64,000 nt of DNA from Hoylesella buccalis ATCC 35310 (GTDB taxonomy: Bacteria > Bacteroidota > Bacteroidia > Bacteroidales > Bacteroidaceae). Shown here one piece after another: positions 8,869 to 64,000 of the stretch (its first letter is position 1; each line of letters opens with the position of its first letter). The translations under genes were made by a program, and so were the position numbers. The DNA lies in assembly GCF_025151385.1 (NCBI RefSeq), contig NZ_CP102287.1:558001-622000 (forward strand), written 5' to 3'. Under the pieces are notes generated by a model. That model saw only the letters and a program-made list of their open reading frames with translations. It did not search any database and was not told the origin of the DNA.

Positions 8869-10226
8869 CACTACTGTCCACGAAAATCTTTTAATAATCT
8901 CTTGAAACGCCTATAAATACAAGCTTGTAGGAGATAAAATAGACTCCCTACTTTTGAAAAGAGTATCTTTGCCACAAATTACAATTTGAAAGCAGATACT
9001 TATGAACAAAGGTCGATACGTATTTTCACAGCTGTGCGACTTTCTGCCGACAGACCATTTCAAATGGTTGATAAAAAAGTATGAAGGTAATAAATATGTG
9101 AAGAGTTTCACTTGTTGGAATCATCTGATGGTTCTTCTATTTGGTCAGTTGTCTAATCGTGAGGGATTACGAGACCTTATTGTAACCATCACTCCGTTCA
9201 AGTCAGCGTTCCACCATCTTGGTTTTGGAAAGAATGTCAGTAGAAGCAATTTGAGCAAGGCCAATGAAATACGCGAAGTCAAGATATTCCAAGAGTTTGC
9301 AGACAAGATGGTTTCCATAGCAAGAGAGAAACGAGGAGTCGTCAAGGACTTCTTCATATCGAACAATGTCTATGCGTTTGACTCCTCAACAATATCATTG
9401 TGCCTTTCTGTATACTGGTGGACTAAACTGCATCATGGGAAAGGAGGAGTGAAATTGCATGAACTGTATGACGTGAAGACAGACATTCCGACATTTTCTG
9501 TCATTACAGACGCTTCAGTTCACGATTCTCAAGTGATGGAGCTAATTCCCTATGAGAAAGAGAGTTTCTATATATTTGACAGAGCGTATATGGCAACTAG
9601 GAAACTTTATATAATAGAAGGAGCAGAAGCTTACTTTGTCGTGAGAGAGAAGCATAAAATGCCGTTTGAGGTCATAGAGGATAAAGAATACAACAACCCT
9701 TCATCTGGAATTATGGCTGACCAAATTATACGTTTCAAGGGATACAAGACTAAGAAGCAATATCCAAATAAACTTCGACGAGTGGTATTCTATGACTATG
9801 ATGGTAATAGGACATTTGTATTTTACACGAACAATTTTGAAATTACAGCGGAACAGGTTGCTATGCTTTACAAATACAGATGGAGAGTAGAACTGTTCTT
9901 CAAATGGCTGAAGCAACATCTGCGCATCAAAGAGTTTTATGGAACCTCGGAGAATGCTGTAAAAATACAAATCTATGCAGCTATCATTGCATATTGTCTT
10001 GTCGTTATCGTACAAGAATGTATGGGGCTAAAGCTTCAAACCTATGATGTTCTAAGAATTTTAAGCACGGCATTGTTGACAAAAATGCCATTGTGTGACT
10101 TGCTCATTGAACAGAAAGAGGAAGAATTTACTGAAGGAAAAAACCTGCAGCTCTGCCTCAATTTTGATGGGTAACTATCAATTTGTTACTTTTTGAAATG
10201 TTAAAGGGTTTTCGTGGACAGTAGTG
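8869..10226 (+). mobile_element. IS4-family insertion sequence, copy 1 (1358 bp)
   Basis: The ends are inverted repeats: the left end starts CACTACTGTCCACGAAAA and the right end is its complement, with further partial matching. A 9-bp target duplication AAGTGGATT flanks it (8860-8868 and 10227-10235). One transposase gene fills the element. It is inserted in nspC in the same orientation. It appears identical base for base to the copy at 14693-16050. Confidence 0.97.
9002..10174 (+). CDS. IS4-family transposase (DUF4372 N-terminal domain), copy 1
   Basis: The 390-residue DDE transposase has an N-terminal DUF4372-like domain (~1-75, 'FSQLCDFLPTDHF') followed by the RNase H-like catalytic domain. 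Catalytic candidates are Asp in 'YAFDSSTI', Asp in 'YIFDRAYM' and Glu in 'YRWRVELFFKWLKQHL', the last being the Y-(2)-R-(3)-E-(6)-K signature of IS4. It starts with ATG 133 bases inside the left end. It appears intact and identical to the second copy, so both can be active. Confidence 0.95.
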   Translation: MNKGRYVFSQLCDFLPTDHFKWLIKKYEGNKYVKSFTCWNHLMVLLFGQLSNREGLRDLIVTITPFKSAFHHLGFGKNVSRSNLSKANEIREVKIFQEFADKMVSIAREKRGVVKDFFISNNVYAFDSSTISLCLSVYWWTKLHHGKGGVKLHELYDVKTDIPTFSVITDASVHDSQVMELIPYEKESFYIFDRAYMATRKLYIIEGAEAYFVVREKHKMPFEVIEDKEYNNPSSGIMADQIIRFKGYKTKKQYPNKLRRVVFYDYDGNRTFVFYTNNFEITAEQVAMLYKYRWRVELFFKWLKQHLRIKEFYGTSENAVKIQIYAAIIAYCLVVIVQECMGLKLQTYDVLRILSTALLTKMPLCDLLIEQKEEEFTEGKNLQLCLNFDG

Positions 10227-14692: not shown

Positions 14693-16050
14693 CACTACTG
14701 TCCACGAAAATCTTTTAATAATCTCTTGAAACGCCTATAAATACAAGCTTGTAGGAGATAAAATAGACTCCCTACTTTTGAAAAGAGTATCTTTGCCACA
14801 AATTACAATTTGAAAGCAGATACTTATGAACAAAGGTCGATACGTATTTTCACAGCTGTGCGACTTTCTGCCGACAGACCATTTCAAATGGTTGATAAAA
14901 AAGTATGAAGGTAATAAATATGTGAAGAGTTTCACTTGTTGGAATCATCTGATGGTTCTTCTATTTGGTCAGTTGTCTAATCGTGAGGGATTACGAGACC
15001 TTATTGTAACCATCACTCCGTTCAAGTCAGCGTTCCACCATCTTGGTTTTGGAAAGAATGTCAGTAGAAGCAATTTGAGCAAGGCCAATGAAATACGCGA
15101 AGTCAAGATATTCCAAGAGTTTGCAGACAAGATGGTTTCCATAGCAAGAGAGAAACGAGGAGTCGTCAAGGACTTCTTCATATCGAACAATGTCTATGCG
15201 TTTGACTCCTCAACAATATCATTGTGCCTTTCTGTATACTGGTGGACTAAACTGCATCATGGGAAAGGAGGAGTGAAATTGCATGAACTGTATGACGTGA
15301 AGACAGACATTCCGACATTTTCTGTCATTACAGACGCTTCAGTTCACGATTCTCAAGTGATGGAGCTAATTCCCTATGAGAAAGAGAGTTTCTATATATT
15401 TGACAGAGCGTATATGGCAACTAGGAAACTTTATATAATAGAAGGAGCAGAAGCTTACTTTGTCGTGAGAGAGAAGCATAAAATGCCGTTTGAGGTCATA
15501 GAGGATAAAGAATACAACAACCCTTCATCTGGAATTATGGCTGACCAAATTATACGTTTCAAGGGATACAAGACTAAGAAGCAATATCCAAATAAACTTC
15601 GACGAGTGGTATTCTATGACTATGATGGTAATAGGACATTTGTATTTTACACGAACAATTTTGAAATTACAGCGGAACAGGTTGCTATGCTTTACAAATA
15701 CAGATGGAGAGTAGAACTGTTCTTCAAATGGCTGAAGCAACATCTGCGCATCAAAGAGTTTTATGGAACCTCGGAGAATGCTGTAAAAATACAAATCTAT
15801 GCAGCTATCATTGCATATTGTCTTGTCGTTATCGTACAAGAATGTATGGGGCTAAAGCTTCAAACCTATGATGTTCTAAGAATTTTAAGCACGGCATTGT
15901 TGACAAAAATGCCATTGTGTGACTTGCTCATTGAACAGAAAGAGGAAGAATTTACTGAAGGAAAAAACCTGCAGCTCTGCCTCAATTTTGATGGGTAACT
16001 ATCAATTTGTTACTTTTTGAAATGTTAAAGGGTTTTCGTGGACAGTAGTG
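14693..16050 (+). mobile_element. IS4-family insertion sequence, copy 2 (1358 bp)
   Basis: It has the same ends and same length as the copy at 8869 and appears identical throughout. Its own 9-bp target duplication ATAGAATTT lies at 14684-14692 and 16051-16059, which shows independent transposition rather than segmental duplication. It is in direct orientation relative to copy 1, 4466 bp away end to start. Confidence 0.97.
14826..15998 (+). CDS. IS4-family transposase (DUF4372 N-terminal domain), copy 2
   Basis: The 390 residues are identical to the transposase at 9002-10174, with the same DDE residues and the Y-R-E-K signature. It is intact. The lack of any difference between copies means very recent transposition or gene conversion. 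Confidence 0.95.
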   Translation: MNKGRYVFSQLCDFLPTDHFKWLIKKYEGNKYVKSFTCWNHLMVLLFGQLSNREGLRDLIVTITPFKSAFHHLGFGKNVSRSNLSKANEIREVKIFQEFADKMVSIAREKRGVVKDFFISNNVYAFDSSTISLCLSVYWWTKLHHGKGGVKLHELYDVKTDIPTFSVITDASVHDSQVMELIPYEKESFYIFDRAYMATRKLYIIEGAEAYFVVREKHKMPFEVIEDKEYNNPSSGIMADQIIRFKGYKTKKQYPNKLRRVVFYDYDGNRTFVFYTNNFEITAEQVAMLYKYRWRVELFFKWLKQHLRIKEFYGTSENAVKIQIYAAIIAYCLVVIVQECMGLKLQTYDVLRILSTALLTKMPLCDLLIEQKEEEFTEGKNLQLCLNFDG

Positions 16051-18951: not shown

Positions 18952-19490
18952 GTACGCTCAGCATGAGCATTATCTAACGGGTGCAACTCCCGAGTATGGC
19001 CTAATAGCGCGAATTACATAACTAAAGGCAAGGGTGTTCATCGTGAGGTGAAATCTGAAGGAAGCTGGCGACAAACATCTGACTTAACGTACAGAAACTT
19101 TTTATAAGGCATTTGGCCATGGATGAGATTGTCAAACAAATCAAAGTCTTATAGCTATTCGGAATGGTTGGCGGAGTTCCCTTGAGCTTAACGAAAAATA
19201 AAGTAGATATAAGGTGGAAAGATATTGTTCATATCCGAGGAGGACTCACGGACGCATCAAATAGTTTTTTTACGAAAGAAACGGAGTAACGCTTGCTGTG
19301 AAAAGTCAGCAGATGCCATAGTAGTGGAGTACTCGATAACGCTCCACGAAAGGCAGACCTGTCAATTAAACGGTAGTAACTGAAACGTATATCGAAGGCA
19401 TGGCTGAAAACAACATGCCGCACACCGTAAGGTGTAAAAACGCGAAACTGCCGTATGCCAAACGGCACGTACGGTGATGGGGAGGTCGGC
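18952..19490 (+). ncRNA. Group II intron relic, ORF-less and 3' truncated
   Basis: The sequence has the conserved secondary-structure motifs of bacterial group II introns. The putative 5' end is GTACGCTCAGC (for GUGYG) with 'GGGTGCAACTCCCGAGT'; domain I has 'AAGGCAAGGGTG', 'CATCGTGAGGTG' and 'GAAGGAAGCTGGCG', then 'AACGTACAGAAAC'. Domain V lies at about 19448-19478 (CCGTA/TACGG, CG bulge, TGCC/GGCA). No reverse transcriptase ORF is present in domain IV, which is reduced to small stems. The 5' strand of domain VI (GGGAGGTCGGC) is there but its complementary strand, branch-point A and 3' splice site are missing before the pgk terminator. It therefore cannot splice. Boundaries are approximate. 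Confidence 0.8.
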
Positions 19491-19589: not shown

Positions 19590-20840
19590 TCAGCCTTTAA
19601 TGGCAGCTACACCGGGAAGAGTTTTTCCCTCAATGGCCTCAAGCATTGCGCCACCACCAGTAGAAACGTAAGAAACCTTGTCGGCCAAGCCAAACTTGTT
19701 GACAGCTGCCACTGAGTCGCCACCGCCAACCAGAGAGAATGCACCATTCTCTTGCGTGGCTTGAGCTACGTATTTGGCAATTTCACCAGTACCGTGTGCG
19801 AAGTTTTCCAACTCGAACACACCAACAGGACCGTTCCACAAGATAGTCTTAGAATCGAGAATAATCTTCTTCCAGTTCTCCAAACTCTCTTCCGATGCGT
19901 CCATGCCTTCCCATTCGTCTGGAATTTCATTGATGGGGAACACTTTGCGTTCGGTGTCGTTGGAGAATTCCTTTCCGCAAACGGTTGCTACCGACAATGA
20001 CAGGTTCACGCCCTTTTCTTTGGCGGCTTTCATCACATTAAGAGCCTCTGGCATCAAATCATCTTCGTGCAACGACTTACCAATCTTGCCACCTTGTGCT
20101 TTGATGAAGGTGTAACCCATGCCGCCGCCGATAATCAAGTTGTCTACCTTGTCAAGCAAGTTCTTGATAACACCCAGCTTAGAGCTTACCTTGCTGCCAC
20201 CGATGATGGCCGTGAAAGGATGTTGTGCGTTCTTCAACACGTTGTCAATGGCAGTAACCTCTTTCTCCATCAGGTAGCCTAACATCTTGCTATCGGCGTC
20301 AAAATAGTCGGCGATCACAGCTGTTGAAGCGTGCTTGCGGTGAGCGGTACCAAAGGCATCGTTTACATATACGTCTGCATACGAAGCCAGTTTCTTGGCA
20401 AAGTCTGCCTGGCTGGTCTTCATGGCCTTCTTTGCCTCGTCATATTCTGGTGTGCCTTTTTCTACGCCTACAGGCTTGCCTTCTTCTTCAGCATAGAAGC
20501 GAAGATTTTCCAGCAACAGTGCTTCACCCATCTTCAAGTCAGCTGCCTCTTTCTCAGCATGGGCGCAGTCTTTCGCAAATTTCACGTTAACGCCTAAAGC
20601 ATCTGAAACGTTCTTAACGATTTGTTCGAGTGATAATTCAGCCTTCACTTTGCCTTTGGGCTTGCCCATGTGGCTCATCATGATGACAGCACCGCCGTCT
20701 GCAAGAATTTTCTTCAGCGTAGGCAGAGCACCACGAATGCGGGTGTCGTCGGTTACCTTTCCATTTTCATCCAATGGAACATTGAAGTCTACGCGTACAA
20801 TTGCTTTCTTTCCAGCAAAATTGAATTGATCAATTTTCAT
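19590..20840 (-). CDS. pgk: Phosphoglycerate kinase
   Basis: It is the glycolytic enzyme transferring phosphate from 1,3-bisphosphoglycerate to ADP. It has 416 residues, normal length. Visible: N-terminal '[19 protein letters not shown]', the substrate loop '[10 protein letters not shown]', 'TAHRKHAS', the nucleotide site '[12 protein letters not shown]' and 'WNGPVGVFE', and the C-terminal '[13 protein letters not shown]...STGGGAMLE'. A TAnnTTTG box (TAACTTTG) lies 48-55 bases upstream on the minus strand. It is monocistronic with its own terminator. Confidence 0.98.
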
Positions 20841-20990: not shown

Positions 20991-21078
20991 CCAATCTCCA
21001 TGACTTTGGCAGCCAATCTCTTTGACTTTGACTGCCAAACTCTTTGACTTTGACTGCCAAACTCTATGAGATTGCACG
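20991..21078. repeat. 22-bp repeat array A (four units)
   Basis: Four consecutive 22-bp units start at 20991, 21013, 21035 and 21057. Each begins CCAAT/ACTC, then two bases, then TGACTTTG (TGAGATTG in unit 4), then four variable bases. Within a unit CCAAA-TCA faces TGA-TTTG, so the array is alternating inverted 11-bp half-sites. It lies between the pgk promoter and the end of the DUF1460 gene. The remainder of 20841-21156 shows nothing else. Confidence 0.92.
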
Positions 21079-21156: not shown

Positions 21157-22005
21157 TTACAGTCCGGCACACCTGACCGCCCTGATGCCAATTTGTGAGC
21201 GTTGTCTACTCATGTACTTGTTGAGCGTCATCGATTCTTCCACCACTTTTCCGTGAATGGAGGAGGCATTGAGCAGATGTAGGCCATCTTCGTGCCAGAT
21301 GGCTATGCCGACGTGACTGGTATCCAGCCCTTTTCGGCTGGTGAGCATGGCCAGGATGTCACCGTCTTTGATGCACCGCCTGAGGAGGGGCGTATTGCGA
21401 ATGCTGTCCTTGGGAATGTACAGATATTCGTTGCCACTTAGCTCAATCTCCATTTCTCGAATGGCTGCGATGACCTCCGGCTTGCCCTTCATCATCGGAT
21501 AATATTGCGGATGGGTTGTCATGTAGTGCAGGTCAAGCACCTGTGTAGCCGAGAAAGGCGGGTCAAGCTCTTCAACATGCTGGATGTAGCCCATGCGCAC
21601 GTTGTCTTCTATCCAGGATGAGAAGTAGTGAAGACGGTTGGGATAAGCTACTTTTCCATTGCGATATCTGACGAGTCGCAGAAATTGACAAAAGTCTTGA
21701 AAACGCTTTTGATGGTTCTTGTGGCATAAGAAAAGTGCCAAAACATTTTCCACATACGTTGTACAGTCAAGTTCGCGCAAGTTGATAACCAGGTTCTCCC
21801 GGTCGTTGTTTTCCAAGGTCTTGGCGATATAGGGCGTTCCAATCAACTGACGAGCAAAAAATATCACCATGTTTGTGCCTTTGTCTTGCTGACGGGCAGA
21901 AGCGAGAAGTTGTTCAACCTTGACACTGTCAGCTTTTTCATATTGCAGGGTTTGCCCGAAGACCTGTAGGCAGAAGGTGGATAATAGTAAAAATAGCAGT
22001 CGCAT
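21157..22005 (-). CDS. DUF1460 amidase-like secreted protein
   Basis: This 282-residue exported protein has a signal peptide 'MRLLFLLLSTFCLQVFGQ'. The body has 'LIGTPY', 'LRELDCTTYVENVLA' (Cys as the likely nucleophile of an NlpC/P60-like papain fold), 'DGDILAMLTSRKGLDTSHVGIAIW' with the His, and a basic end. DUF1460 proteins are thought to cleave peptidoglycan peptides. Last gene of a tight minus-strand series; the DUF4421 gene ends 8 bases before its start. Confidence 0.85.
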   Translation of the reverse strand: MRLLFLLLSTFCLQVFGQTLQYEKADSVKVEQLLASARQQDKGTNMVIFFARQLIGTPYIAKTLENNDRENLVINLRELDCTTYVENVLALFLCHKNHQKRFQDFCQFLRLVRYRNGKVAYPNRLHYFSSWIEDNVRMGYIQHVEELDPPFSATQVLDLHYMTTHPQYYPMMKGKPEVIAAIREMEIELSGNEYLYIPKDSIRNTPLLRRCIKDGDILAMLTSRKGLDTSHVGIAIWHEDGLHLLNASSIHGKVVEESMTLNKYMSRQRSQIGIRAVRCAGL

Positions 22006-33899: not shown

Positions 33900-35432
33900 A
33901 TGAGTATAGTAATTGTTGCCATCGTAGCGCTGATTCTTGGCGGACTGGGTGGCTATGCGATTTTCCGTTACATTGTTAAAGGAAAATATAATGAAATGGT
34001 AGCAGCCGCTAATAAAGAGGCTGATGTGATTAAGGAAAAGAAATTGTTGGAGGTCAAGGAGAAATTCCTGAACAAGAAATCTGAGTTGGAGAAGGAAGTT
34101 CAACTGCGCAACCAGAAAATCCAACAGACCGAGAACAAGCTCAAGCAAAGAGAAATTGGATTGAGTCAGCGTCAGGAAGAACTCGGACGCAGAAAACAGG
34201 AGGTAGACCATCAGCAACAGCGCATCGACAATGAAAAGAAATTGTTGCAAATTAAGCAGGCCGAACTCGAAAAAATGCAACTGCAAGAGCGCGAAATGCT
34301 GGAAGAACTCTCTGGACTTAGTGCAGAAGAAGCAAAAAGCAGATTGATAGAAAGCCTGAAAGACGAGGCCCGTACAGATGCAGCCGGCTACATCAATGAA
34401 ATTATAGACGAAGCCAAGCTCAATGCCAACCAAGAGGCTAAGAAAATTGTCATCCAGACTATCCAGCGCGTAGCCACCGAGACGGCTATTGAAAATTCTG
34501 TCAGCGTCTTCCATATAGACAATGACGAGGTAAAAGGTCGCATCATTGGTCGCGAAGGACGCAACATCCGTGCCTTGGAAGCTGCAACGGGAGTAGAAAT
34601 CGTTGTCGACGACACACCCGAAGCCATCGTTATTTCTGCGTTCGATCCAGTGCGTCGAGAGGTTTGCCGTTTGGCTCTTCACCAGCTCGTTGCTGATGGA
34701 CGTATCCACCCCGCACGTATAGAAGAGGTGGTGGCAAAGGTGAAGAAGCAACTTGATAACGAAATCATCGAAACGGGAAAACGTACCGTGATCGACCTAG
34801 GCATTCATGGTTTGCACCCCGAACTGGTACGCATCGTAGGCAAAATGAAATATCGCTCAAGCTATGGACAGAACCTCCTTCAGCATGCACGCGAAACCGC
34901 TAATCTCTGTGCGGTGATGGCGTCAGAACTGGGACTCAATCCCAAAAAGGCAAAGCGTGCAGGACTTTTACACGATATTGGTAAGGTACCTGATGAGGAG
35001 AGTGAACTGCCTCACGCACTATACGGTGGCAAATTGGCCGAAAAATACAAGGAGAAACCGGATATCTGCAACGCTATCGCAGCCCACCATGATGAGGTAG
35101 AGATGCAAACACTGCTGGCTCCCATTGTCCAGGTGTGTGATGCCATCTCGGGTGCGCGCCCTGGTGCACGTCGCGAAATTGTGGAAGCATACATCAAACG
35201 ACTGAATGACCTCGAGGCCATCGCGATGAGTTATCCTGGCGTGACGAAGACTTATGCCATACAGGCTGGCCGCGAACTTCGCGTTATCGTAGGTGCCGAC
35301 CAGATGGATGATGCCGAGTCGCTGAAGTTGTCAGATGATATTGCCACCAAGATACAAAACGAGATGACCTATCCTGGACAGGTAAAAATCACTGTCATTC
35401 GCGAAACACGCAGTGTGGCCTACGCTAAATAA
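33900..35432 (+). CDS. rny: Ribonuclease Y
   Basis: This membrane-anchored endoribonuclease starts mRNA decay. It has 510 residues: an N-terminal membrane helix ('[21 protein letters not shown]'-type, residues 1-21), a long charged coiled coil (~30-180), a KH domain with '[15 protein letters not shown]' (~218) and an HD domain with '[13 protein letters not shown]' and '[11 protein letters not shown]', carrying the catalytic His-Asp. The C-terminal region is complete. Terminator follows. Confidence 0.97.
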
Positions 35433-35697: not shown

Positions 35698-35779
35698 TCA
35701 ATCCCATTGAGTTTAGCATCCAATCTCTATGACTTTGCCAATCAAAAGCATTGACTTTGGATGTCAAACTCATTGACTT
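35698..35779. repeat. 22-bp repeat array B (four units, last one split by an IS)
   Basis: Units start at 35698, 35720, 35742 and 35764. Unit 4 is cut by the IS3 element at 35780; joining the left part to the sequence at 37384 (after one CTT duplication) gives TCAAACTC-ATTGACTTTG-AAAA, a perfect fourth unit of 22 bp. The pattern of alternating inverted half-sites is the same as in arrays A, C and D. Confidence 0.9.
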
Positions 35780-35949
35780 TGTCATTTCCTAAAATCGCTT
35801 GACAGTTTTTAGTTGTTTATTCTATATTACTTGTCAATATTTTTTTATTGTACTATTTTACTTGTCAATCTCCGTTTTTCGAGGCTTATAAGCATTTCCT
35901 TTGGTGGAGAAATGAAATAGCCTAAAGAGGAGCGAGCCTTGTTTTGGGC

Positions 35950-35984
35950 AAGTTCTTCAGGGGCTCGATGCCCCTGGAGAACTT
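35950..35984. repeat. 15-bp inverted repeat in the IS3 tail, flanked by a 12-bp direct repeat
   Basis: Arms AAGTTCTTCAGGGGC (35950-35964) and GCCCCTGGAGAACTT (35970-35984), 5-base loop, one G-T pair. CTTGTTTTGGGC occurs on both sides (near 35938 and 36018). Stable enough to terminate or block incoming transcription. Confidence 0.85.
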
Positions 35985-36041
35985 AGGTAAGCTAGCCTGT
36001 AAGCGTCGCTCACCTTGTTTTGGGCTTGGCAAAGATAGTTC

Positions 36042-36947
36042 TTATTTTGCTGACGCACGACTGTTTTTCTCTTTTTTCCAAAGATTCGGCCCAGGTTCCT
36101 CTCCTGAGTATACGGCCATGGGCGTTTTCTTTCCGATGCTCATGTGCGGTCGCTTGAGGTTGTAGAAATCAATCATTTGCGCTATTTCACGCTGGGCGTG
36201 ATTGAAGTCTTGATACATCTGATGCTGATATATCCATTCCACTTTGAACGTGCCGTTTTGTCTTTCGGCCATGGCGTTGTCCGTTGGTTTGTAACATTCG
36301 GTCATGCTGACTCGGATGTGGTGACTCATAAGCGTGTCAATGTATTCGTTACAGGCATATTGCACGCCTCTGTCAGAGTGGTGTATGGTTCCGCAAAGGT
36401 TGTCTCCTCCGGCTTTTTGGATGGCCATGAGCAGTGCCTTCCGGGTGTTCTCCGCCTCCATGGTCTCTGACAGGCACCAGCCTATCACTGCGTGGGAATA
36501 GGCGTCCGTGACCAGATGCAGATACAGCACGTCATGGGCAATCCAGATATAGGTGATGTCCGCAACCCACAACTGGTTAACCTGATTCACCTCAAGGCCT
36601 TGTGCCAGATTCGAATATTTCTTGTAGAGATGGTTGGAGTTTGTCGTTCGCCGGCGTTTGGGCTTTTTCAACATCAGCCCATTACTGGAAAGCAGGCGGA
36701 GGAAGGCATCCCTCCCATGGGTGATTTCCACTCCCAAGTCCTGCTTTAGCAGGTGATGTAATTTCACGCCTCCCAGTCCCGGGCAGTACTGGCGATAGTA
36801 GTCTACCATGGAGAGGATCAGGCGCACGCGCTGTTGCTCGGAAACGACAGTCTTGCGCTTGTTGTAATACCATTGGCGTCGTTTGTCAAACAGACCACAC
36901 AATTTTTCGATGGATACCTTGGAGTATTCATTGTGCAGCGCCGTCAC
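36042..36947 (-). CDS. IS3-family transposase OrfB (integrase core)
   Basis: These 301 residues have an HTH_21-like N-terminal part and the rve DDE core: Asp in 'WVADITYIW', Asp in 'HHSDRGVQY' and Glu in 'NAMAERQNGTFK', the usual D-D-35-E arrangement. It begins with GTG overlapping the orfA stop by 4 bases. A run of seven A at the end of orfA allows a -1 frameshift that joins the two frames into one OrfAB transposase. Confidence 0.93.
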   Translation of the reverse strand: MTALHNEYSKVSIEKLCGLFDKRRQWYYNKRKTVVSEQQRVRLILSMVDYYRQYCPGLGGVKLHHLLKQDLGVEITHGRDAFLRLLSSNGLMLKKPKRRRTTNSNHLYKKYSNLAQGLEVNQVNQLWVADITYIWIAHDVLYLHLVTDAYSHAVIGWCLSETMEAENTRKALLMAIQKAGGDNLCGTIHHSDRGVQYACNEYIDTLMSHHIRVSMTECYKPTDNAMAERQNGTFKVEWIYQHQMYQDFNHAQREIAQMIDFYNLKRPHMSIGKKTPMAVYSGEEPGPNLWKKEKNSRASAK

Positions 36948-37324
36948 TGTTTGACACCACCTTTTTTTAATATGGAAATGCCCTCCTCGGCTTCGGCGAT
37001 GTCTATCAATTTCTTGTAAGCGTAATTGCGAAGACGCTCATATTCAAGAGCTTTCTCTAAATCAGCTATCCGCTTTTCTAAAGCGTCTTGAGCTGTGAAT
37101 TCTACGTTGGGATGTGCCATTTTGTAAGTGTTGATTATTTCTTCCGGCAAAGATAAGCATTTTGAATCAACAGGCCACTTCTTCATCCACGCCAGCAGAA
37201 GGCCGTGCGAGAGCCCATACTTGCGAGCCACCGATAATTTAGAACCGCCGCCAGAAAAATATTCACTTAACACTTGCAGCTTGAACGCGTCACTAAATTC
37301 TCTTCTTTTGCTTGATTTCGTCAT
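36944..37324 (-). CDS. IS3-family transposase OrfA
   Basis: This 126-residue protein has an N-terminal helix-turn-helix ('FSDAFKLQVLSEYFSGGGSK' region, residues 9-50) that binds the IS ends, and a leucine-zipper-like helix (~85-110). The 3' end carries TTAAAAAAAGG, a slippery run in the right phase for a -1 shift into orfB. The start is 56 bases inside the right inverted repeat. Confidence 0.9.
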   Translation of the reverse strand: MTKSSKRREFSDAFKLQVLSEYFSGGGSKLSVARKYGLSHGLLLAWMKKWPVDSKCLSLPEEIINTYKMAHPNVEFTAQDALEKRIADLEKALEYERLRNYAYKKLIDIAEAEEGISILKKGGVKQ

Positions 37325-37425
37325 GTCTTTTTACTTTTTTTTGAGTTTGATTATGTGTCAAGCTATTTCAGTATAAGACACTTTGAAAATGGATTGATAG
37401 TTTGTTGCCGAACAAAGCAAAAGCT

Positions 37426-44955: not shown

Positions 44956-46114
44956 AAAGGGTAAAGAAGAGTCGCTCAAACGCTTCCATCCCTGGATTTT
45001 TTCTGGTGCAATCCTTCGGATGGATGATGGGATTGAAGAAGGCGAACTTGTCAAAGTAGTGACCTTTCACCGAGAGTTCATTGCGATAGGGCATTACCAA
45101 ATCGGCTCCATCGCTGTGCGAGTATTGTCGTTTAGGGATATCACTATTGACCAAGAGTTTTGGGAGTCAAGACTAAAGGCTGCCCTGAATATGCGCATTG
45201 CCATTGGTATTGCCGACAATCCAACAAACAACACCTACCGATTGGTGCATGGTGAAGGCGACATGTTGCCAGGCTTAATCATTGATTGTTATGGGAAAAC
45301 GGCTGTCATGCAAGCGCATAGCGTCGGAATGCACGTGGAAAGACTGCCTATATGTGAGGCTCTTAGGAGCGTGATGGGCAGTCGTATCGAGCATGTTTTC
45401 TATAAAAGTGAGACCACTTTGCCGTTCAAAGCCGAATTGGGACAACAGGATGGATTCCTCTATGGTGGCAGCGATGACAACGTAGCTATCGAGAACGGAC
45501 TGAAATTTCATGTGGATTGGTTGAAAGGGCAAAAGACTGGCTTTTTCGTAGACCAGCGTGAAAACCGCACTTTGCTGGAAAAATATGCCAAAAACCGCTC
45601 GGTACTCAACATGTTTTGCTACACTGGAGGCTTCTCAGTGTATGCCATGCGCGGTGGGGCCAAGCTCGTTCATTCGGTTGACAGCAGTGCTAAAGCCGTA
45701 GAGTTGACCAATGCGAACATCGAGTTGAACTTCCCGTCGGATGCCAGGCATGCGGCTTTCTGTGACGATGCTTTCAAGTATCTCGACGCTCACGATGCAC
45801 AATACGATCTGGTGGTGCTGGATCCTCCCGCCTTTGCCAAGCATCGGGCGGCGCTACGCAATGCTTTGAAGGGCTATACCCGACTGAACGTGAAGGGGTT
45901 CGAGCGCATCAAGCCCGGAGGAATACTGTTTACGTTCAGTTGTTCACAGGTGGTGACGAAAGAAAACTTTAGGAATGCCGTGTTTACAGCGGCCGCCCAG
46001 GCCAAGCGCAAGGTTCGCATTCTGCACCAATTGCACCAGCCTGCCGATCATCCCATCAACATTTACCATCCCGAAGGAGAATATCTGAAGGGCCTCGTCT
46101 TATACGTTGAATAA
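44930..46114 (+). CDS. Class I rRNA methyltransferase, RlmI-like
   Basis: This 394-residue protein has an N-terminal PUA domain (~5-80, 'FHPWIFSGAI'), a linker and a C-terminal Rossmann methyltransferase with 'VLNMFCYTGGFSVYAMRGGA' (SAM motif I, ~222), 'DLVVLDPPAFAKH' (motif IV, DPP) and 'FSCSQVV' with the catalytic Cys. This layout is that of RlmI, which makes m5C1962 in 23S rRNA. It overlaps the exonuclease gene in front and tilS (8 bases) behind, so three RNA-modifying or processing genes form one operon. Confidence 0.92.
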   Translation: MTTKTIQLKKGKEESLKRFHPWIFSGAILRMDDGIEEGELVKVVTFHREFIAIGHYQIGSIAVRVLSFRDITIDQEFWESRLKAALNMRIAIGIADNPTNNTYRLVHGEGDMLPGLIIDCYGKTAVMQAHSVGMHVERLPICEALRSVMGSRIEHVFYKSETTLPFKAELGQQDGFLYGGSDDNVAIENGLKFHVDWLKGQKTGFFVDQRENRTLLEKYAKNRSVLNMFCYTGGFSVYAMRGGAKLVHSVDSSAKAVELTNANIELNFPSDARHAAFCDDAFKYLDAHDAQYDLVVLDPPAFAKHRAALRNALKGYTRLNVKGFERIKPGGILFTFSCSQVVTKENFRNAVFTAAAQAKRKVRILHQLHQPADHPINIYHPEGEYLKGLVLYVE

Positions 46115-47432
46115 GTTTGAGCATCATATTCAGAACTATATCTCATCTTTGTCATTGCTTCACAAAGATGAGTTGTATCTGGTAGCCCTTTCAGGCGGAG
46201 CCGACAGCGTGTGCCTGCTTCGCTGCCTCAAGACACTGGGTTACCGCCTAGAAGCCATCCATTGCAATTTTCGTTTACGCGGTGAAGAGTCGGATAGGGA
46301 TGAGCTTTTTTGCCAAGAGTTGTGCCGAAAACTTGACATTCCCCTGCATTTGGCGCATTTTGACACGCGCTCTTATGCCGAGTTGCACCATGTGAGCATT
46401 GAAATGGCGGCCCGCGAGCTGAGATACGACCATTTCAAAAACCTTTGTAAGGACATGGGTGCTGGCGGCGTTTGTGTGGGTCATCATCAGGACGACAGCG
46501 TAGAGACCATTTTAATCAACCTGGTTCGCTCAACGGGCATTCATGGGTTGACGGGCATTGCGCCTAAAAACGATTATATATACAGGCCACTACTTTGTGT
46601 AAGTCGCAAAGAGATAACGGATTACCTGCAAAGCATTCAACAAAATTATATCACCGACAGCACCAATTTAGTGCCCGATGTTCAGCGCAATAAAATGCGG
46701 TTGGAAGTGATTCCGCTTTTGGAAAGCATCAATCCAGCGGCACAGCAAAACATCTTACAAACGGCCCTGCGCCTGGCTGATGCTGTGAGTATCCTTGACG
46801 GGTGGATGGAACGAGTGGCCCAATGGAAACCCCGTGGATCTTATTGGTATTTCCACCTCAAGGAGGTTACGCACGAATACATATTGTGGTATTTGCTGAA
46901 AAACCATCAATTCACCTCCAAGCAGATTGACAACATTTATGAAAACAGAAACAACGGTAGCGGAAGAGTGTGGACCTCCAAGACGCACGAGTTGCTGATT
47001 GACCGCGACCAACTGGTGTTGGCGCAGCGCAACAATGAACCACAGAAGCCACTCACCATTCCGGAACCAGGTGTTTACCGCTTTGATACTAAGTTGAAAG
47101 TGAGGCTTTCCGTTATCGCCGCCCCCATATCGGCTCAAACCGTCAAGGATAAACGCTGTGCCTATATTGATTTTGACCAAGTAAGTTTTCCATTAGTACT
47201 CAGACCTGTCCAGCCGGCCGACCGCTTCCAGCCTTTCGGCATGAATGGAACTAAATTGTTGAGCGACTACATGACCGACCGAAAGATGTCGCTGTTTGAG
47301 AAACGGCAGCAACTGGTGCTGACCGATCATCAAGGACATATACTGTGGGTGGTTGAGGAGAGGCTGGCCGATCCCTATAAGATGACAAAAGAAACGCAAA
47401 CGGTTTTAAAAGTAGAAATGCTTCACGAATGA
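46107..47432 (+). CDS. tilS: tRNA(Ile)-lysidine synthase
   Basis: This 441-residue protein changes C34 to lysidine in the CAU-anticodon tRNA-Ile so that it reads AUA. It has the PP-loop 'LVALSGGADSVCLL' near residue 27, the 'VGHHQDDSVETILINL' motif (~130) and the C-terminal TilS domain. The start is TTG overlapping the previous stop; no ATG lies before the PP-loop. The convergent gap to kdsB contains repeat array C. Confidence 0.95.
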   Translation: MNKFEHHIQNYISSLSLLHKDELYLVALSGGADSVCLLRCLKTLGYRLEAIHCNFRLRGEESDRDELFCQELCRKLDIPLHLAHFDTRSYAELHHVSIEMAARELRYDHFKNLCKDMGAGGVCVGHHQDDSVETILINLVRSTGIHGLTGIAPKNDYIYRPLLCVSRKEITDYLQSIQQNYITDSTNLVPDVQRNKMRLEVIPLLESINPAAQQNILQTALRLADAVSILDGWMERVAQWKPRGSYWYFHLKEVTHEYILWYLLKNHQFTSKQIDNIYENRNNGSGRVWTSKTHELLIDRDQLVLAQRNNEPQKPLTIPEPGVYRFDTKLKVRLSVIAAPISAQTVKDKRCAYIDFDQVSFPLVLRPVQPADRFQPFGMNGTKLLSDYMTDRKMSLFEKRQQLVLTDHQGHILWVVEERLADPYKMTKETQTVLKVEMLHE

Positions 47433-47499: not shown

Positions 47500-47587
47500 T
47501 TAAAAGCATTGAGTTTGGCGTTCAAACTCAATGCAATTGAGCCCCAAACTCAATGACTTTGGCGGCCAAAGTCCATGCTATTGAAAA
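47500..47587. repeat. 22-bp repeat array C (four units)
   Basis: Units start at 47500, 47522, 47544 and 47566. Units 1 and 2 form a perfect 12-bp hairpin (GCATTGAGTTTG / CAAACTCAATGC). Unit 3 is closest to the family consensus (CCAAACTC, AA, TGACTTTG, GCGG). The array fills the spacer between the convergent tilS and kdsB genes. Confidence 0.92.
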
Positions 47588-47606: not shown

Positions 47607-48359
47607 TTACTCCACCTGCTGCAAATGTCCTAAAAAGCGTTCGGCCCGCTCCAAATCTTCGGGTGTATCTATTCCTACAGTCTCAATGTCAGTGAGACCA
47701 ACCTTGATACGATAACCATTCTGCAACCACCTTAACTGTTCCAAACTTTCGGCCAATTCCAACGAAGATTGCGGCAGCTGTGTGATTTCCCTGAGAACAT
47801 CCCTGCGGTAAGCGTAAATGCCCAGATGCTTTAAAAAAGGATATTGGCTCATCCACTCGTCACCTTTTTTGTTTCTGATGAATGGGATGACCGACCTTGA
47901 GAAATACAGCGCATACCCATCTTTATCCACCACAATCTTAGGTGAGTTGGGATTTTCCAGCGCCTCCTGGCTTTCAAACCGTTTTCCCAGCGTTGCTATT
48001 TGCGTCTTGGAGTCGTCGAAGCAATGGCACAACGTTTCTATTTGCTGTCGCTGAATGAAAGGCTCGTCGCCCTGAATGTTGAGCACAACGTCACACGTCA
48101 GTCCCAATTGCTCTACTGCTTCCTCGATTCTGTCTGTTCCACTTTGATGGTTAGGGCTGGTCATCACCGCTTTTCCGCCAAATGCTGTGACGGCATCAAA
48201 GATGCGCTGGTCGTCAGTTGCGACGAAAGCATCTTCCAATACCTGTGAAACCTGTTCGTACACCCGTTGGATAACGGTCTTGCCACCCAGCATGGCCAAA
48301 GGCTTTCCGGGGAAACGGGACGACCCGTAGCGCGCCGGTATGATACCTGTAAACTTCAT
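47607..48359 (-). CDS. kdsB: 3-deoxy-manno-octulosonate cytidylyltransferase
   Basis: It activates Kdo to CMP-Kdo for lipid A-core assembly. It has 250 residues; 'IPARYGSSRFPGKPLAMLGGK' (start, residues 6-26), 'NIQGDEPFI' (~95) and 'LGIYAYRRDVL' (~180) are typical. The minus-strand TATCTTTG at 48382-48389 is a likely -7 box, divergent from the MORN gene promoter. Confidence 0.97.
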   Translation of the reverse strand: MKFTGIIPARYGSSRFPGKPLAMLGGKTVIQRVYEQVSQVLEDAFVATDDQRIFDAVTAFGGKAVMTSPNHQSGTDRIEEAVEQLGLTCDVVLNIQGDEPFIQRQQIETLCHCFDDSKTQIATLGKRFESQEALENPNSPKIVVDKDGYALYFSRSVIPFIRNKKGDEWMSQYPFLKHLGIYAYRRDVLREITQLPQSSLELAESLEQLRWLQNGYRIKVGLTDIETVGIDTPEDLERAERFLGHLQQVE

Positions 48360-59291: not shown

Positions 59292-59482
59292 TTTCCCCTT
59301 CACCGCTGGTTTTCAAAAGTTGCCGCTGTTTCAGCATAAAGCTGCTAACTTACATTCCTTATCATTTTGTCATCATGTCGTTGAAACTTGAACTTCAGCT
59401 GATGGTGCGAAGTTAAGAAAAAAGTAAAAGGTAAACCAAAATGTCCTCATTCAGACCTATTGATTTACCTTTGTAGTGATTG

Positions 59483-59555
59483 TACACCCTTAGGGATTCG
59501 AACCCTAGACCCACTGATTAAGAGTCAGTTGCTCTACCAACTGAGCTAAGGGTGC
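59483..59555 (-). tRNA. tRNA-Lys(CTT), copy 1
   Basis: This 73-nt cloverleaf on the minus strand has a GCACCCT/AGGGTGT acceptor stem, anticodon loop CTCTTAA (CTT) and T loop TTCGAAT. It is identical to the copy at 59570. Confidence 0.94.
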
Positions 59556-59569
59556 AAGCGAGAAAGAAG

Positions 59570-59642
59570 TACACCCTTAGGGATTCGAACCCTAGACCCA
59601 CTGATTAAGAGTCAGTTGCTCTACCAACTGAGCTAAGGGTGC
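59570..59642 (-). tRNA. tRNA-Lys(CTT), copy 2
   Basis: An identical 73-nt tandem duplicate, 14 bases upstream of copy 1 in transcription order, sharing its promoter. Confidence 0.94.
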
Positions 59643-59662
59643 AAGTTTCTTTTTTGCGTGTG

Positions 59663-59745: not shown

Positions 59746-62175
59746 CTATGAGATAAACAGACTTCCTATTTGATAGAAGGCTGCAGATACAATCCATGCC
59801 AGAAGCGTGGTATAACCGGCCGAGAACAATGCCCATTTCCAACTGCCTGTTTCGCCTTTGATGGCAGCTATAACGGCCACGCAGGGGAAGTATAACAGGA
59901 TAAAGAGCAAGAAAGCGTATGCGGTTAGCGGCGTGATGCCATCGGCTGTCATTTGTTTTCTCAGTCGTGAATACTTCTCGGGCTCATCTGATGTTGCGTC
60001 ATCTTCCTCAACACTCCCTTCTGACGAATAGAGTACACCTATTGTTGAAGCCACGATCTCTTTAGCTCCAACACCTGCCACGATGCCCACATCCAGTTTC
60101 CAACTAAAACCTTGAACTCTGAATACTGGTTCTATGGCCTTGCCAATGCGTCCAATATAGCTCTGCTCTTGCTGTTCAGCCCTGGACAGATGCTCGTTAT
60201 GGGGAAAATAGCCCAATGCCCAGACAATGATACTGGCCACCAAGATGATGCCACCCATCTTCTTGAGGTACAATTTTCCTTTCTCCCAAGTATGTCTGGT
60301 GATGGCTTTCCAGGTCGGTAATCGGTACGGGGGAAGTTCCATCACAAAGGGGGTGTCTTCACCCTTGATGACAAATTTGCTGAACAACCAGCCCAGAAAG
60401 ACGGCCATGAGGATGCCAATGAGATACAGCGACATCATCATCGTTGACCGATACTGGGTCGAGAAGAACGTTCCGATAATCATGATATAAACGGGAAGTC
60501 GGGCCGAACAGCTCATCATGGGTAAGATGAGCATGGTGATGAGCCTTGACTTTCGGCTTTCAATGGTTCGTGTTGCCATCACTGCCGGCACATTACAGCC
60601 GAAACCCACAATGAGAGGAATGAACGATTTGCCGTGCAATCCCATCTTGTGCATCAGCTTGTCCATGATGAAAGCCGCACGAGACATGTAACCGCTGTCC
60701 TCCATATAAGAGATGAAGAAATACAGAATTAATATCTGTGGCAAGAAGACGATGACGGCACCTACACCCCCAATGACACCGTCGACGAGCATATCTTTGA
60801 TGGGGCCGTCAGGAAAATAGGTGGAAATGGCCTGTCCCAGCCAGGCAACGCCGGATTCTATCCAATCCATGGGGTATTGACCAAGTGAGAAAGTTACTTC
60901 GAACATCAGCCACATCAAGGCTATGAAGATAGGGAAACCCAATACTTTATGCGTGATAAAGCTGTCCAGCCAGTGCGTAAGCTGGTAGGTGTCTTTCTTG
61001 TTTCCTGTTTTGTAGGCAGCCTCTTTCAGTGCTCCATGAATAAAGCCGTATTTCGCATCCATCACCGCAGTCTCACTGTCGGTATTCGTTTCCTCCCTTA
61101 CGCGTCTGTCAGCTTTGTCCCTGGCAGCAAATATCTTGTCTGCCTGGGGCATGGAGCTGATCATTTTTTCCACGTCATGGTCGTGTTCCATCAGCTTGAT
61201 GCCAAGATATCGGGTAGAGTAGCGCTGCCGAATATTTTCGTCTTGTTTCAAGAAAGCCTGGATGTCAGCAATGCCTTGCTCTATTTCATGCCCATGATTG
61301 ATATGTACATGGCGGAATTGTGGTTGGGCGTCTTCCTTGCCTTCGTATGTCTCAATAACCTGATGGAACAGCTCCTTAACGCCTCTTCCATTTTTAAATA
61401 CAGTAGGAACCATCGGGATGCCGAAAAGTTCGGAAAGCTTGTCGATATGAATCCGGTCTCCTCGGTCTTCAGACTCGTCGTACATGTTTAATGCGCAGAC
61501 GATACGAAGGTGCATGTCAATGAGTTGTGTCGTTAGATAAAAGTTTCGCTCCAAGTTTGAGGTATCTATGACATTGATGACGACATCTGGTGTTTTCTCG
61601 ATGATTTGTTTTCTCACATAGAGTTCTTCCGGCGAATAAGCCGAAAGCGAATAAGTGCCGGGAAGGTCAACTATGTTGAAATGATAGCCTTCAAAGCTGG
61701 CATGACCTTCCTTGGCATCGACGGTGACACCCGAATAATTGCCCACTCTTTCGTGTGCGCCGGATGCAAAATTGAACAATGATGTCTTCCCGCAGTTAGG
61801 GTTTCCCACCAAGGCTACATTGATGGTTCGGCTCTTCTGCATCGCAACAGCACGGATTTGCTGTTCTGTTACACGTTGGATTCCATCGACGTCGTCATCA
61901 GAAATGGCTCCTTGGTAATTGTTTTCAGCTGGTTTTTGCGTTCGGGCCTCTTCAAGTGACACCACCTCAATCATATCGGCCTCGGAGTGTCTTAGTGACA
62001 CTTCGTAACCCATCACTTTGTATTTCACGGGGTCTTTCAAGGGCGCATTCAATAGCACTTCAACCTTTTTCCCGCTGATAAAGCCCATTTCAACGATGCG
62101 TTTGCGAAAGCCACCGTGACCGGTAACTTTAACAATTACCCCTGTTTCGCCTGTTTTTAAGTCTGATAACTTCAT
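59746..62175 (-). CDS. feoB: FeoA-FeoB fusion, ferrous iron transporter
   Basis: This 809-residue inner-membrane Fe(II) transporter has an N-terminal FeoA (SH3-like) domain at ~1-75 ('VEMGFISGKKVEVLL'), a G domain with G1 'GNPNCGKTSLFN' (~128), G3 'DLPGTYSLS', G4 'NMYDE', a helical GDI domain, then the gate/core membrane segments (~400-800). The FeoA fusion is normal for the phylum. TATTTTTG on the minus strand (62198-62205) is the probable -7 box. Confidence 0.96.
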   Translation of the reverse strand: MKLSDLKTGETGVIVKVTGHGGFRKRIVEMGFISGKKVEVLLNAPLKDPVKYKVMGYEVSLRHSEADMIEVVSLEEARTQKPAENNYQGAISDDDVDGIQRVTEQQIRAVAMQKSRTINVALVGNPNCGKTSLFNFASGAHERVGNYSGVTVDAKEGHASFEGYHFNIVDLPGTYSLSAYSPEELYVRKQIIEKTPDVVINVIDTSNLERNFYLTTQLIDMHLRIVCALNMYDESEDRGDRIHIDKLSELFGIPMVPTVFKNGRGVKELFHQVIETYEGKEDAQPQFRHVHINHGHEIEQGIADIQAFLKQDENIRQRYSTRYLGIKLMEHDHDVEKMISSMPQADKIFAARDKADRRVREETNTDSETAVMDAKYGFIHGALKEAAYKTGNKKDTYQLTHWLDSFITHKVLGFPIFIALMWLMFEVTFSLGQYPMDWIESGVAWLGQAISTYFPDGPIKDMLVDGVIGGVGAVIVFLPQILILYFFISYMEDSGYMSRAAFIMDKLMHKMGLHGKSFIPLIVGFGCNVPAVMATRTIESRKSRLITMLILPMMSCSARLPVYIMIIGTFFSTQYRSTMMMSLYLIGILMAVFLGWLFSKFVIKGEDTPFVMELPPYRLPTWKAITRHTWEKGKLYLKKMGGIILVASIIVWALGYFPHNEHLSRAEQQEQSYIGRIGKAIEPVFRVQGFSWKLDVGIVAGVGAKEIVASTIGVLYSSEGSVEEDDATSDEPEKYSRLRKQMTADGITPLTAYAFLLFILLYFPCVAVIAAIKGETGSWKWALFSAGYTTLLAWIVSAAFYQIGSLFIS

Positions 62176-62624: not shown

Positions 62625-62712
62625 TCAATAGCGTTGAGTTTGGCTACCAAACTGTATGACATTGGCAGTTAAAGTCATTGACTTTGGAGTCCAAACTCAA
62701 TGAGTTTGAACC
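62625..62712. repeat. 22-bp repeat array D (four units)
   Basis: Units start at 62625, 62647, 62669 and 62691. Unit 1 (with TTGAGTTTGG) matches unit 1 of arrays B and C better than its own neighbours, so the arrays share a positional order. It lies between feoB and the AAA/DUF4143 gene. Confidence 0.92.
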
Positions 62713-62929: not shown

Positions 62930-64000
62930 TTATCCTCTCCGCACAAACCTTTTCAATAAGAAAGACAAAAAATATGGAAAGATATAGAATTTGCCATTGA
63001 AACCGATATTCTTATATCCTAATTTGATGCCGTATTTAACATCTGGATATTTATCATCACTTAGTAACTTGTTCAATGACGGTGTGGCACCATCATTAGC
63101 TTTTACTTCAACTGGAATAAGGGAGTCAGCATCTCTGATAAAAAAATCCATTTCCAGAGAAGGCCTGTCTTTGCTGTAGTAATAAAGGCTATAACCCTGC
63201 TTTACCAACATATCACCTACAATGTTTTCATATATAGCTCCTTTATATGTACCCAGATTCTTATTGGCTCTCAAATCATCTTGTGCTTCCTCATCGAGTG
63301 ACGCAATCAAAAGTCCAGTGTCTTTATAGTAAATCTTGTATAGCTTAGGATCATAGTTCCCTTTAAGCGGGAGCTCAGGTTGATTCAAACAGTAGCAGAT
63401 GTTTATAACGCCAGCATCAGAAAGCCATTCTACACAACCAATGTAATCTCTATTACGCGCATTCTTTGCAATTTTAGTAATCTGGAAACGCTTGTTTTCT
63501 TTTGCCAAGAAGGTAGAAATGTGGTTATAAACGGCTTGAATCTTTGCTTTATCCAAACCTTCTACATATTTTGTAATATCCTCCTCATAGTCTTTGAGCA
63601 ATTGCTTCTGTATGGCCAAAGTTCCACTGAAATTCTTGTTCTTGATATATGTGTTTACAACCTCTGGCATACCTCCGATAGTAGCATAATCACGGAACAA
63701 TTCAAAGAGAACATCCATTTGCAGTTTGGCAAGTGGTTTGACTTCCAACATGTGCTGATACAACTCATCCACAAAATCATCATTGTATCCTTTAGCCCAA
63801 AGAAACTCCTCAAAATCCATGGAATACATCTCATAATCTTCCTTATAGCCTACACTGTTAGATTCAATTTCCCGATAACTAATACCCATCAATGAACCGG
63901 AACAGATAACATCGAAGCGTCCATCAAGTTTAAAAAACTTCAATGATGTAGCACAATTTGGACAAGCTTGAAGCTCATCAAAGAAGAAAAGAGTTTCACC
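62930..64000 (-). CDS. AAA ATPase with DUF4143 domain, 5' truncated by window edge
   Basis: The frame is open to the end of the window; the 356 residues present are the C-terminal part. Seen: Walker B 'TLFFFDELQACP' (Asp-Glu), sensor 'FDVICSGSLMGI', a middle helical part and the C-terminal DUF4143 domain with a PD-(D/E)xK-like set 'LEMDFFIRD' and 'LIPVEVKAND'. Walker A lies beyond the window. These ATPases are frequent in accessory regions of gut Bacteroidota; their function is unknown. The AT-rich composition differs from feoB. Confidence 0.9.
   Translation of the reverse strand, partial: GETLFFFDELQACPNCATSLKFFKLDGRFDVICSGSLMGISYREIESNSVGYKEDYEMYSMDFEEFLWAKGYNDDFVDELYQHMLEVKPLAKLQMDVLFELFRDYATIGGMPEVVNTYIKNKNFSGTLAIQKQLLKDYEEDITKYVEGLDKAKIQAVYNHISTFLAKENKRFQITKIAKNARNRDYIGCVEWLSDAGVINICYCLNQPELPLKGNYDPKLYKIYYKDTGLLIASLDEEAQDDLRANKNLGTYKGAIYENIVGDMLVKQGYSLYYYSKDRPSLEMDFFIRDADSLIPVEVKANDGATPSLNKLLSDDKYPDVKYGIKLGYKNIGFNGKFYIFPYFLSFLLKRFVRRG

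Follow-up and report, generated by a model that had tools for sequence, protein, structure and literature searches.

The 64-kb window, the whole stretch of DNA analysed here, lies in the 3,307,707-bp single contig of its source genome (G000) and holds four intergenic arrays, A to D, each of four 22-bp units and entered without a strand. Array A (20991..21078) occupies a codirectional gap between genes for phosphoglycerate kinase (19590-20840, -) and an amidase-like protein (21157-22005, -). Array B (35698..35785) lies downstream of an RNase Y-like gene (33900-35432, +), array C (47500..47587) in the convergent gap between a PP-loop gene (46107-47432, +) and kdsB (47607-48359, -), and array D (62625..62712) between feoB (59746-62175, -) and a DUF4143 gene (62930-63943, -). 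The initial annotation had reported four 22-bp units at each of these four coordinates; this was borne out, and the units are in register. The window also contained two equal-length transposase genes 5.8 kb apart with identical Pfam scores (9002-10174, which matches an IS4 family in NCBIfam, and 14826-15998), two Rfam group II intron matches at 19037-19354 (D1-D4-3 and D1-D4-1), and a tRNA-Lys gene tandemly duplicated at 59482-59645 with an 87-bp period and 100% matches in TRF.

The repeat unit was yCAAAnTCA-w-TGAnTTTGr plus a loose linker, with two inverted half-sites flanking a central A/T. TRF described each window array as period 22 with 2.4-3.6 copies. All 16 window units had 0-4 mismatches to the 19-bp palindrome CCAAANTCANTGANTTTGG, which occurred with three or fewer mismatches at 12 plus-strand places in the 64 kb, 12/12 of them within arrays; exactly four mismatches were found at three plus-strand places outside the arrays. 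Dispersed intergenic arrays of alternating inverted half-sites with a two-turn period are therefore supported. The half-sites had been described as about one helical turn apart. Their alternation was confirmed and the distance holds as a mean of 11 bp, with consensus centres alternately 10 and 12 bp apart.

Array B is interrupted by an IS3-family insertion sequence (35782..37380, -; ORFs 36042-36947 and 36944-37324) that sits inside, and breaks, its last half-site, and the sequence CTTTG is present on either side of it, at 35777-35781 and 37381-37385. The element was missing at the array B site in the close relatives G060 and G061. A second full copy in G000 (C1:861373-862979) was identical and lay at the same half-site point, again with CTTTG at both junctions, and remnants at 461916-462008 and 639317-639410 were 10 and 55 bp from arrays. 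All four IS3-family matches in G000 at E <= 1e-10 were at arrays, and the element appears to target them.

An 88-column model built from 15 arrays and searched on both strands of G000 returned at least 171 matches at E <= 0.01 (150 of 1,813 candidates scored), and the listed matches merged to at least 75 loci, distributed along its entire length. An initial set of matches had suggested that the arrays cluster in one chromosomal region; this whole-chromosome profile search ruled that out. Scoring four consecutive units with a motif of two unit classes, we found 81 arrays in 1.26 Mb of contiguous G000 sequence (8,000 bases masked as N). Training and scanning of the motif used the same sequence, with reversed sequence as the safeguard; the threshold was set 3 bits above the best reversed-sequence score, which gives zero arrays in the control by construction. 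The first model found 42 arrays at >=30 bits and 0 in reversed sequence. Class 1 half-sites were CAAA(C/G)TCA and class 2 half-sites were CAAAAGCA-like. A genome-wide motif search, proposed in the initial annotation as a check, thus found many further loci; the observation is confirmed and extends beyond the window. Scaling the 81 arrays of this 1.26 Mb to the full 3.31 Mb gives roughly 200 for the whole chromosome.

Placement was overwhelmingly intergenic, as anticipated from the window: 78/81 arrays were clear of predicted genes (simple codon-based calling, with 83% of the sequence coding), and two of the three that overlapped predicted ORFs were low-scoring. Together with a period that is not a multiple of 3, this upholds the earlier view that the arrays are non-coding and rules out a coding repeat. 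Class 1 was enriched between convergent genes (14/36 non-overlapping arrays vs 86/471 gaps >=100 bp, p = 0.007). Unit number was four in 35, three in 17, five in 9, and six in 3 of 66 tallied rows, in which one 12-unit locus enters twice. Four units per locus is therefore usual, as annotated, but not fixed, with 3, 4, 5, 6, 8, and 12 all occurring in a modest variation. A CRISPR array was ruled out by linkers of only 5 bp and degenerate units. At arrays in the window, L111, L118, L167, and L168, the five sources scanned, no Rfam family reached its gathering score, and we met no named repeat with such a layout in Rfam or in the open-access literature, in agreement with the initial annotation; several of these queries were narrow and subscription papers mostly fell outside them.

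We evaluated spacing for the 75 arrays scoring >=25 (40 class 1, 35 class 2) against 20,000 draws from intergenic gaps >=150 bp. The six of 81 arrays below that score, including a second match on the 12-unit array, were left out. The median gap was 11.8 kb. Only 1/74 gaps was <7.4 kb vs 25.3 expected (minimum 12 in 20,000 draws), and 49/74 fell between 7.4 and 15.5 kb vs 19.7 expected (maximum 38 in the draws). The smallest gap was 5.1 kb within class 1, 7.6 kb within class 2, and 7.4 kb between classes, so the exclusion crosses classes. With all 81 arrays, the gaps <7.4 kb were 220 (one locus matched twice), 2352, 5056, and 5146 bp. The gap coefficient of variation was 0.84, within the null range (mean 0.955, minimum 0.643), and 1.05 vs 0.98 in the null for the incomplete list of at least 75 genome-wide loci. 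Long gaps of 34-106 kb occurred in G000; some coincided with regions absent from relatives, and insertions may therefore account for part of them. In the relative G060, neighbors among the 12 arrays of contig C52 were 6.7-20.4 kb apart, with P about 2e-5 of a smallest gap this large, and C50 had one gap of 84.5 kb. The spacing is thus an avoidance of close neighbors with a preferred range and not a strict lattice, and positional order, by which the initial annotation would have judged the element, was strong in this form. Array polarity was correlated with neither gene direction (0.07) nor GC skew (-0.03).

The internal anatomy was examined in the 29 class-1 arrays of exactly four units. Half-site positions 3 and 4 were A in 97-100%. 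The outermost half-sites carried AGC at positions 6-8 more often than inner ones (17/58 vs 9/174, Fisher p = 4e-6); this end specificity indicates that the 88 bp behaves as a whole. Arm complementarity within units was below the shuffled expectation at pairs 5/15, 6/14, and 7/13, while one of the remaining two of five tested pairs was lower at the edge of the null and the other no different. The palindrome therefore appears to act as a pair of independent half-sites rather than a selected stem, which disfavors an RNA hairpin. Similarity was 0.744 for units of the same array, against 0.713 and 0.699 for units of different arrays at the same or another index, respectively, so local homogenization is ongoing. 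The small same-index excess fits the reported likeness of first units between loci. The conclusion drawn from that likeness, that the whole 88 bp was copied and not re-amplified at each place, was unsupported as stated: units resembled their array-mates most, the variance of array polarity was 17.3 vs 6.1 in shuffles, and orthologous arrays differed by whole units. Overall, the earlier interpretation is partly supported.

Comparison with the close relatives G060, G061, and G062 showed that arrays are kept in place. Aligned G060 and G061 blocks were mostly 91-96% identical to G000. Arrays orthologous to A, B, and C were present in both genomes, and one orthologous to D in G061. All 8 mappable arrays on G060:C50 and G061:C27, corresponding to five G000 loci, were at the G000 site, leaving no empty site from which to measure a target-site duplication; the 12 arrays of G060:C52 lie outside the G000 sequence compared. 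The array site also agreed with G000 at L089, L091, L095, and L106, where genes mapped on both sides, and gene order across arrays was kept in most mappable cases. Identity was 93.7% (860/918) in the 17-bp cores, 78.4% (211/269) in the 5-bp spacers (Fisher p = 2e-17 vs cores), and 83.5% (3260/3905) in flanking intergenic sequence (p = 8e-12 vs cores), from 14 pairings of 8 loci that are not independent. Some alignment ends were poor ('coding' columns averaged 86.6%), and the flank value may therefore be too low; the contrast of cores with spacers lies inside the arrays and is unaffected. Apart from one end base, gaps within aligned arrays were whole 22-bp units. Orthologues differed in unit number at 81554 (3 vs 4, where one of the four 'units' is flank), 479467 (5 vs 4), 415853 (12, 8, and 4), and 593698 (4 vs 6). 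Draft contigs of the relatives stopped at or beside arrays (G060:C50 start, G061:C27 end, and G060:C52 start), and arrays may thus break short-read assemblies.

Some arrays were part of larger dispersed elements. Many class-2 arrays lay inside a ~400-bp element found in both orientations, with copies mostly 65-80% alike and no terminal inverted repeats seen by eye. Flanks of class 1 were mostly unrelated: a strong match between 593698 and 861291 was a shared IS, and weaker matches linked 448060, 869448, and 1018347. Genome G205 contained a 200-bp element with four units and, by eye, imperfect inverted ends. It was present in dozens of copies, 78-93% identical; of 296 candidates, 40 were scored, and these included 39 additional copies that shared 86-93% identity with the query copy. 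Some copies were 2.5-4 kb apart, 2.5 kb being the smallest distance among the 40 copies with known positions under 900 kb. The G205 element (L256, L274-L287) has the appearance of a MITE-like carrier that multiplied recently. Arrays can therefore spread with a carrier, and whole-array copying, which failed as a general claim, does fit class 2 and the G205 element. Since some carriers look MITE-like, a mobile origin of the arrays is likely. The REP-associated Y1 transposase (PF01797) had 0 matches in G000, in a search whose control detected it in 5/14 known genomes; its absence ruled out a RAYT/REP system.

The genus Prevotella has oral, gut, and rumen members, and the same 22-bp pitch was found with other unit sequences in four other Prevotella genomes, G006, G016, G005, and G024. 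Unit CAAAAnCATAGGTTTTG formed 13 arrays in 233 kb of G006 and unit CAnATTACnnnGTnATnTG 15 arrays in 200 kb of G016, and G024 had 3 arrays in 200 kb. Period 22 stood out in the raw sequence of these three genomes; in G005 it was no higher than period 21 (2 and 2), and the model matches were three-unit arrays with a 22-bp period. A model of the G000 unit matched at least 8/60 genomes at E <= 1e-6, G000 included, with part of the candidates scored. The loose three-unit skeleton CAAn11TTG matched 41/100 genomes of the genus, counting G000. Among the other 99, 40 had any match and 26 had at least three, or 48 with at least three when both registers were used; the second register, GTT-n11-AAC, was a 'control' pattern that is not neutral and captures the same kind of array. 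Across the order, the skeleton matched 7/118 other genomes at all and three of these at least three times, and the other register gave five matches in G097 (same family) and three in G131. Three 20-kb outgroup pieces showed no period-22 signal, a small sample for which the order-wide scan is the better evidence, and the exact class-1 pair pattern had zero matches in a viral contig collection. At loci L240, L241, and L243 (G128, G121, and G108, from other families of the order), arrays consisted of CAATTGTCATT-like units that seemed to recur every 11 bp.

A few array sites may be shared over these larger distances. Two consecutive G016 arrays 9,542 bp apart flanked a five-gene operon whose G000 counterpart (25-59% identity) also lay between arrays, 9,519 bp apart. 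One G006 array and the G000 array at 361446 both lay downstream of the same gene (47% identity). Candidate site matches also came from G006 44522, G005 53817, and L061, where a related gene is flanked on the corresponding side. Most arrays of distant species with a mappable neighbor were at sites that differed from G000.

Two known repeat families resemble the arrays in part. REP/BIME elements are described as short palindromic intergenic repeats of high copy number and alternating orientation that are targets of specific ISs (PMC1525189, PMC2817692), with entry of such elements into REP sequences described in PMC1525189. The Prevotella arrays are, like REP/BIME of E. coli and Pseudomonas, intergenic, high-copy, alternating in orientation, and apparently IS-targeted. 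They differ in a fixed 22-bp pitch, about four putative dimer sites, avoidance of close neighbors, and a unit sequence that changes among species while the pitch stays constant; unlike REP/BIME with RAYT, G000 is without a Y1 transposase and shows no sign of selected stem pairing. BrickBuilt of Porphyromonas gingivalis, as described in PMC4596501, is a MITE present at 19 loci, with a minisatellite of as many as 22.8 repeats of the 23-nt unit AGAYCATARTATCCTCTCRTRTG and a leader and tail with inverted-repeat ends. It shares with our arrays an oral Bacteroidales setting, dispersed intergenic tandem repeats of about two helical turns, and changes in whole-repeat number. The arrays here are instead 22 bp in period, about four units long, palindromic, spaced apart, and at many more loci, with class 1 mostly lacking shared flanks and a unit sequence that, compared by eye, differs from the printed BrickBuilt consensus.

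We propose, with a probability of about 0.45, that the arrays are docking sites of a dimeric, cooperative DNA-binding protein with a role in chromosome structure. Such a sequence-specific protein would bind the 17-bp palindrome as a dimer, and dimers would assemble cooperatively over about four adjacent sites at the fixed 22-bp pitch. The roughly 200 arrays, most 7.4-15.5 kb apart, would then serve as distributed anchors or barriers that split the chromosome into segments of similar size. We infer the protein binding, its dimeric and cooperative mode, and the role in chromosome structure from sequence patterns: the strict pitch, the independent and end-specific half-sites, and the slow evolution of the cores suggest cooperative protein binding, and the avoidance of close neighbors and independence from gene direction suggest a structural role and not the control of particular genes. 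On the protein side, BldC of Streptomyces, a developmental regulator described as forming cooperative multimers on short direct repeats (PMC5859096), may be an analogy. The closest functional analogy may be a topological insulator such as BIME. One review names BIMEs as candidate domain barriers: the ~600 in E. coli possibly delimit topological domains of the chromosome, and one of them impeded supercoil diffusion (PMC6907758). Retention at the mappable orthologous sites, the class 1 enrichment between convergent genes, the constant pitch in congeners, and the operon between arrays in both G016 and G000 also speak for docking. Against it are the long gaps, a gap coefficient of variation inside the null range, the sparse arrays of G024, the mobile carriers, the drifting unit number, and the mostly unshared sites in distant species. 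No DNA-binding protein stood out by eye among the translation starts between the two closest arrays, at 150124 and 155270.

The arrays could instead be transposase recognition arrays of a selfish, non-autonomous MITE-like element without host function, with avoidance arising from target immunity or the purging of close copies. The common ~400-bp flanks of class 2 in both orientations, the ~200 bp common to G205 copies with their partly inverted ends, the precedent of BrickBuilt, and the distance of at least 2.5 kb kept even by those G205 copies whose positions are known speak for this reading. We consider it rather unlikely: the flanks of class 1 are mostly unrelated, 8/8 mappable arrays are kept at orthologous sites, and the cores change more slowly than the spacers between them, unlike what is expected of a dead insertion. 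A mobilizing transposase was likewise not found in G000 in a search of the Y1 family.

A role in transcription or RNA, in which RNA hairpins or regulator operators in the arrays serve as terminators, 3' end stabilizers, or promoter modules, would account for the intergenic placement and the class 1 enrichment between convergent genes, and BrickBuilt segments are described as having promoter activity (PMC4596501). The sub-random arm complementarity and the zero Rfam matches at arrays in the five sources argue against it, and avoidance on a kilobase scale is unexpected for terminators or a regulon, making this reading improbable. We regard it as less probable still that the arrays are recombination points bordering exchanged chromosome segments. 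The operon common to G016 and G000 does lie between two arrays with outer neighbors that had no counterpart, or a single weak one at another place, in the 200 kb of G016 compared, and ISs and contig ends occur at arrays. Gene pairs flanking arrays were conserved in 0/7 cases between congeners (0/2 where both genes map), against 3/12 for other gaps of 100-400 bp; with counts this small, we dropped array sites as synteny breaks. Close relatives, moreover, keep gene order across arrays in most mappable cases.

Protein docking may extend to a chromosome-folding lattice, a speculative version that we hold with less confidence than docking itself. Four-dimer arrays spaced ~11 kb apart would nucleate a filament of a lineage-specific architectural protein and set domain size, with protein and sites co-evolved between species at a constant 22-bp pitch. 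What sets the size of bacterial topological domains and what organizes Bacteroidota chromosomes are open questions; one Hi-C study reports no homologues of known condensins in two Bacteroidetes (PMC10197239). The review of domain barriers describes their placement as random (PMC6907758), and the barriers proposed here would, in contrast, keep their distance. Sequence-defined, distance-keeping sites would make both questions directly testable, as they can be deleted, moved, counted, and used as bait. Different units on a constant pitch would also provide a model of the co-evolution of a protein and its sites across the genus.
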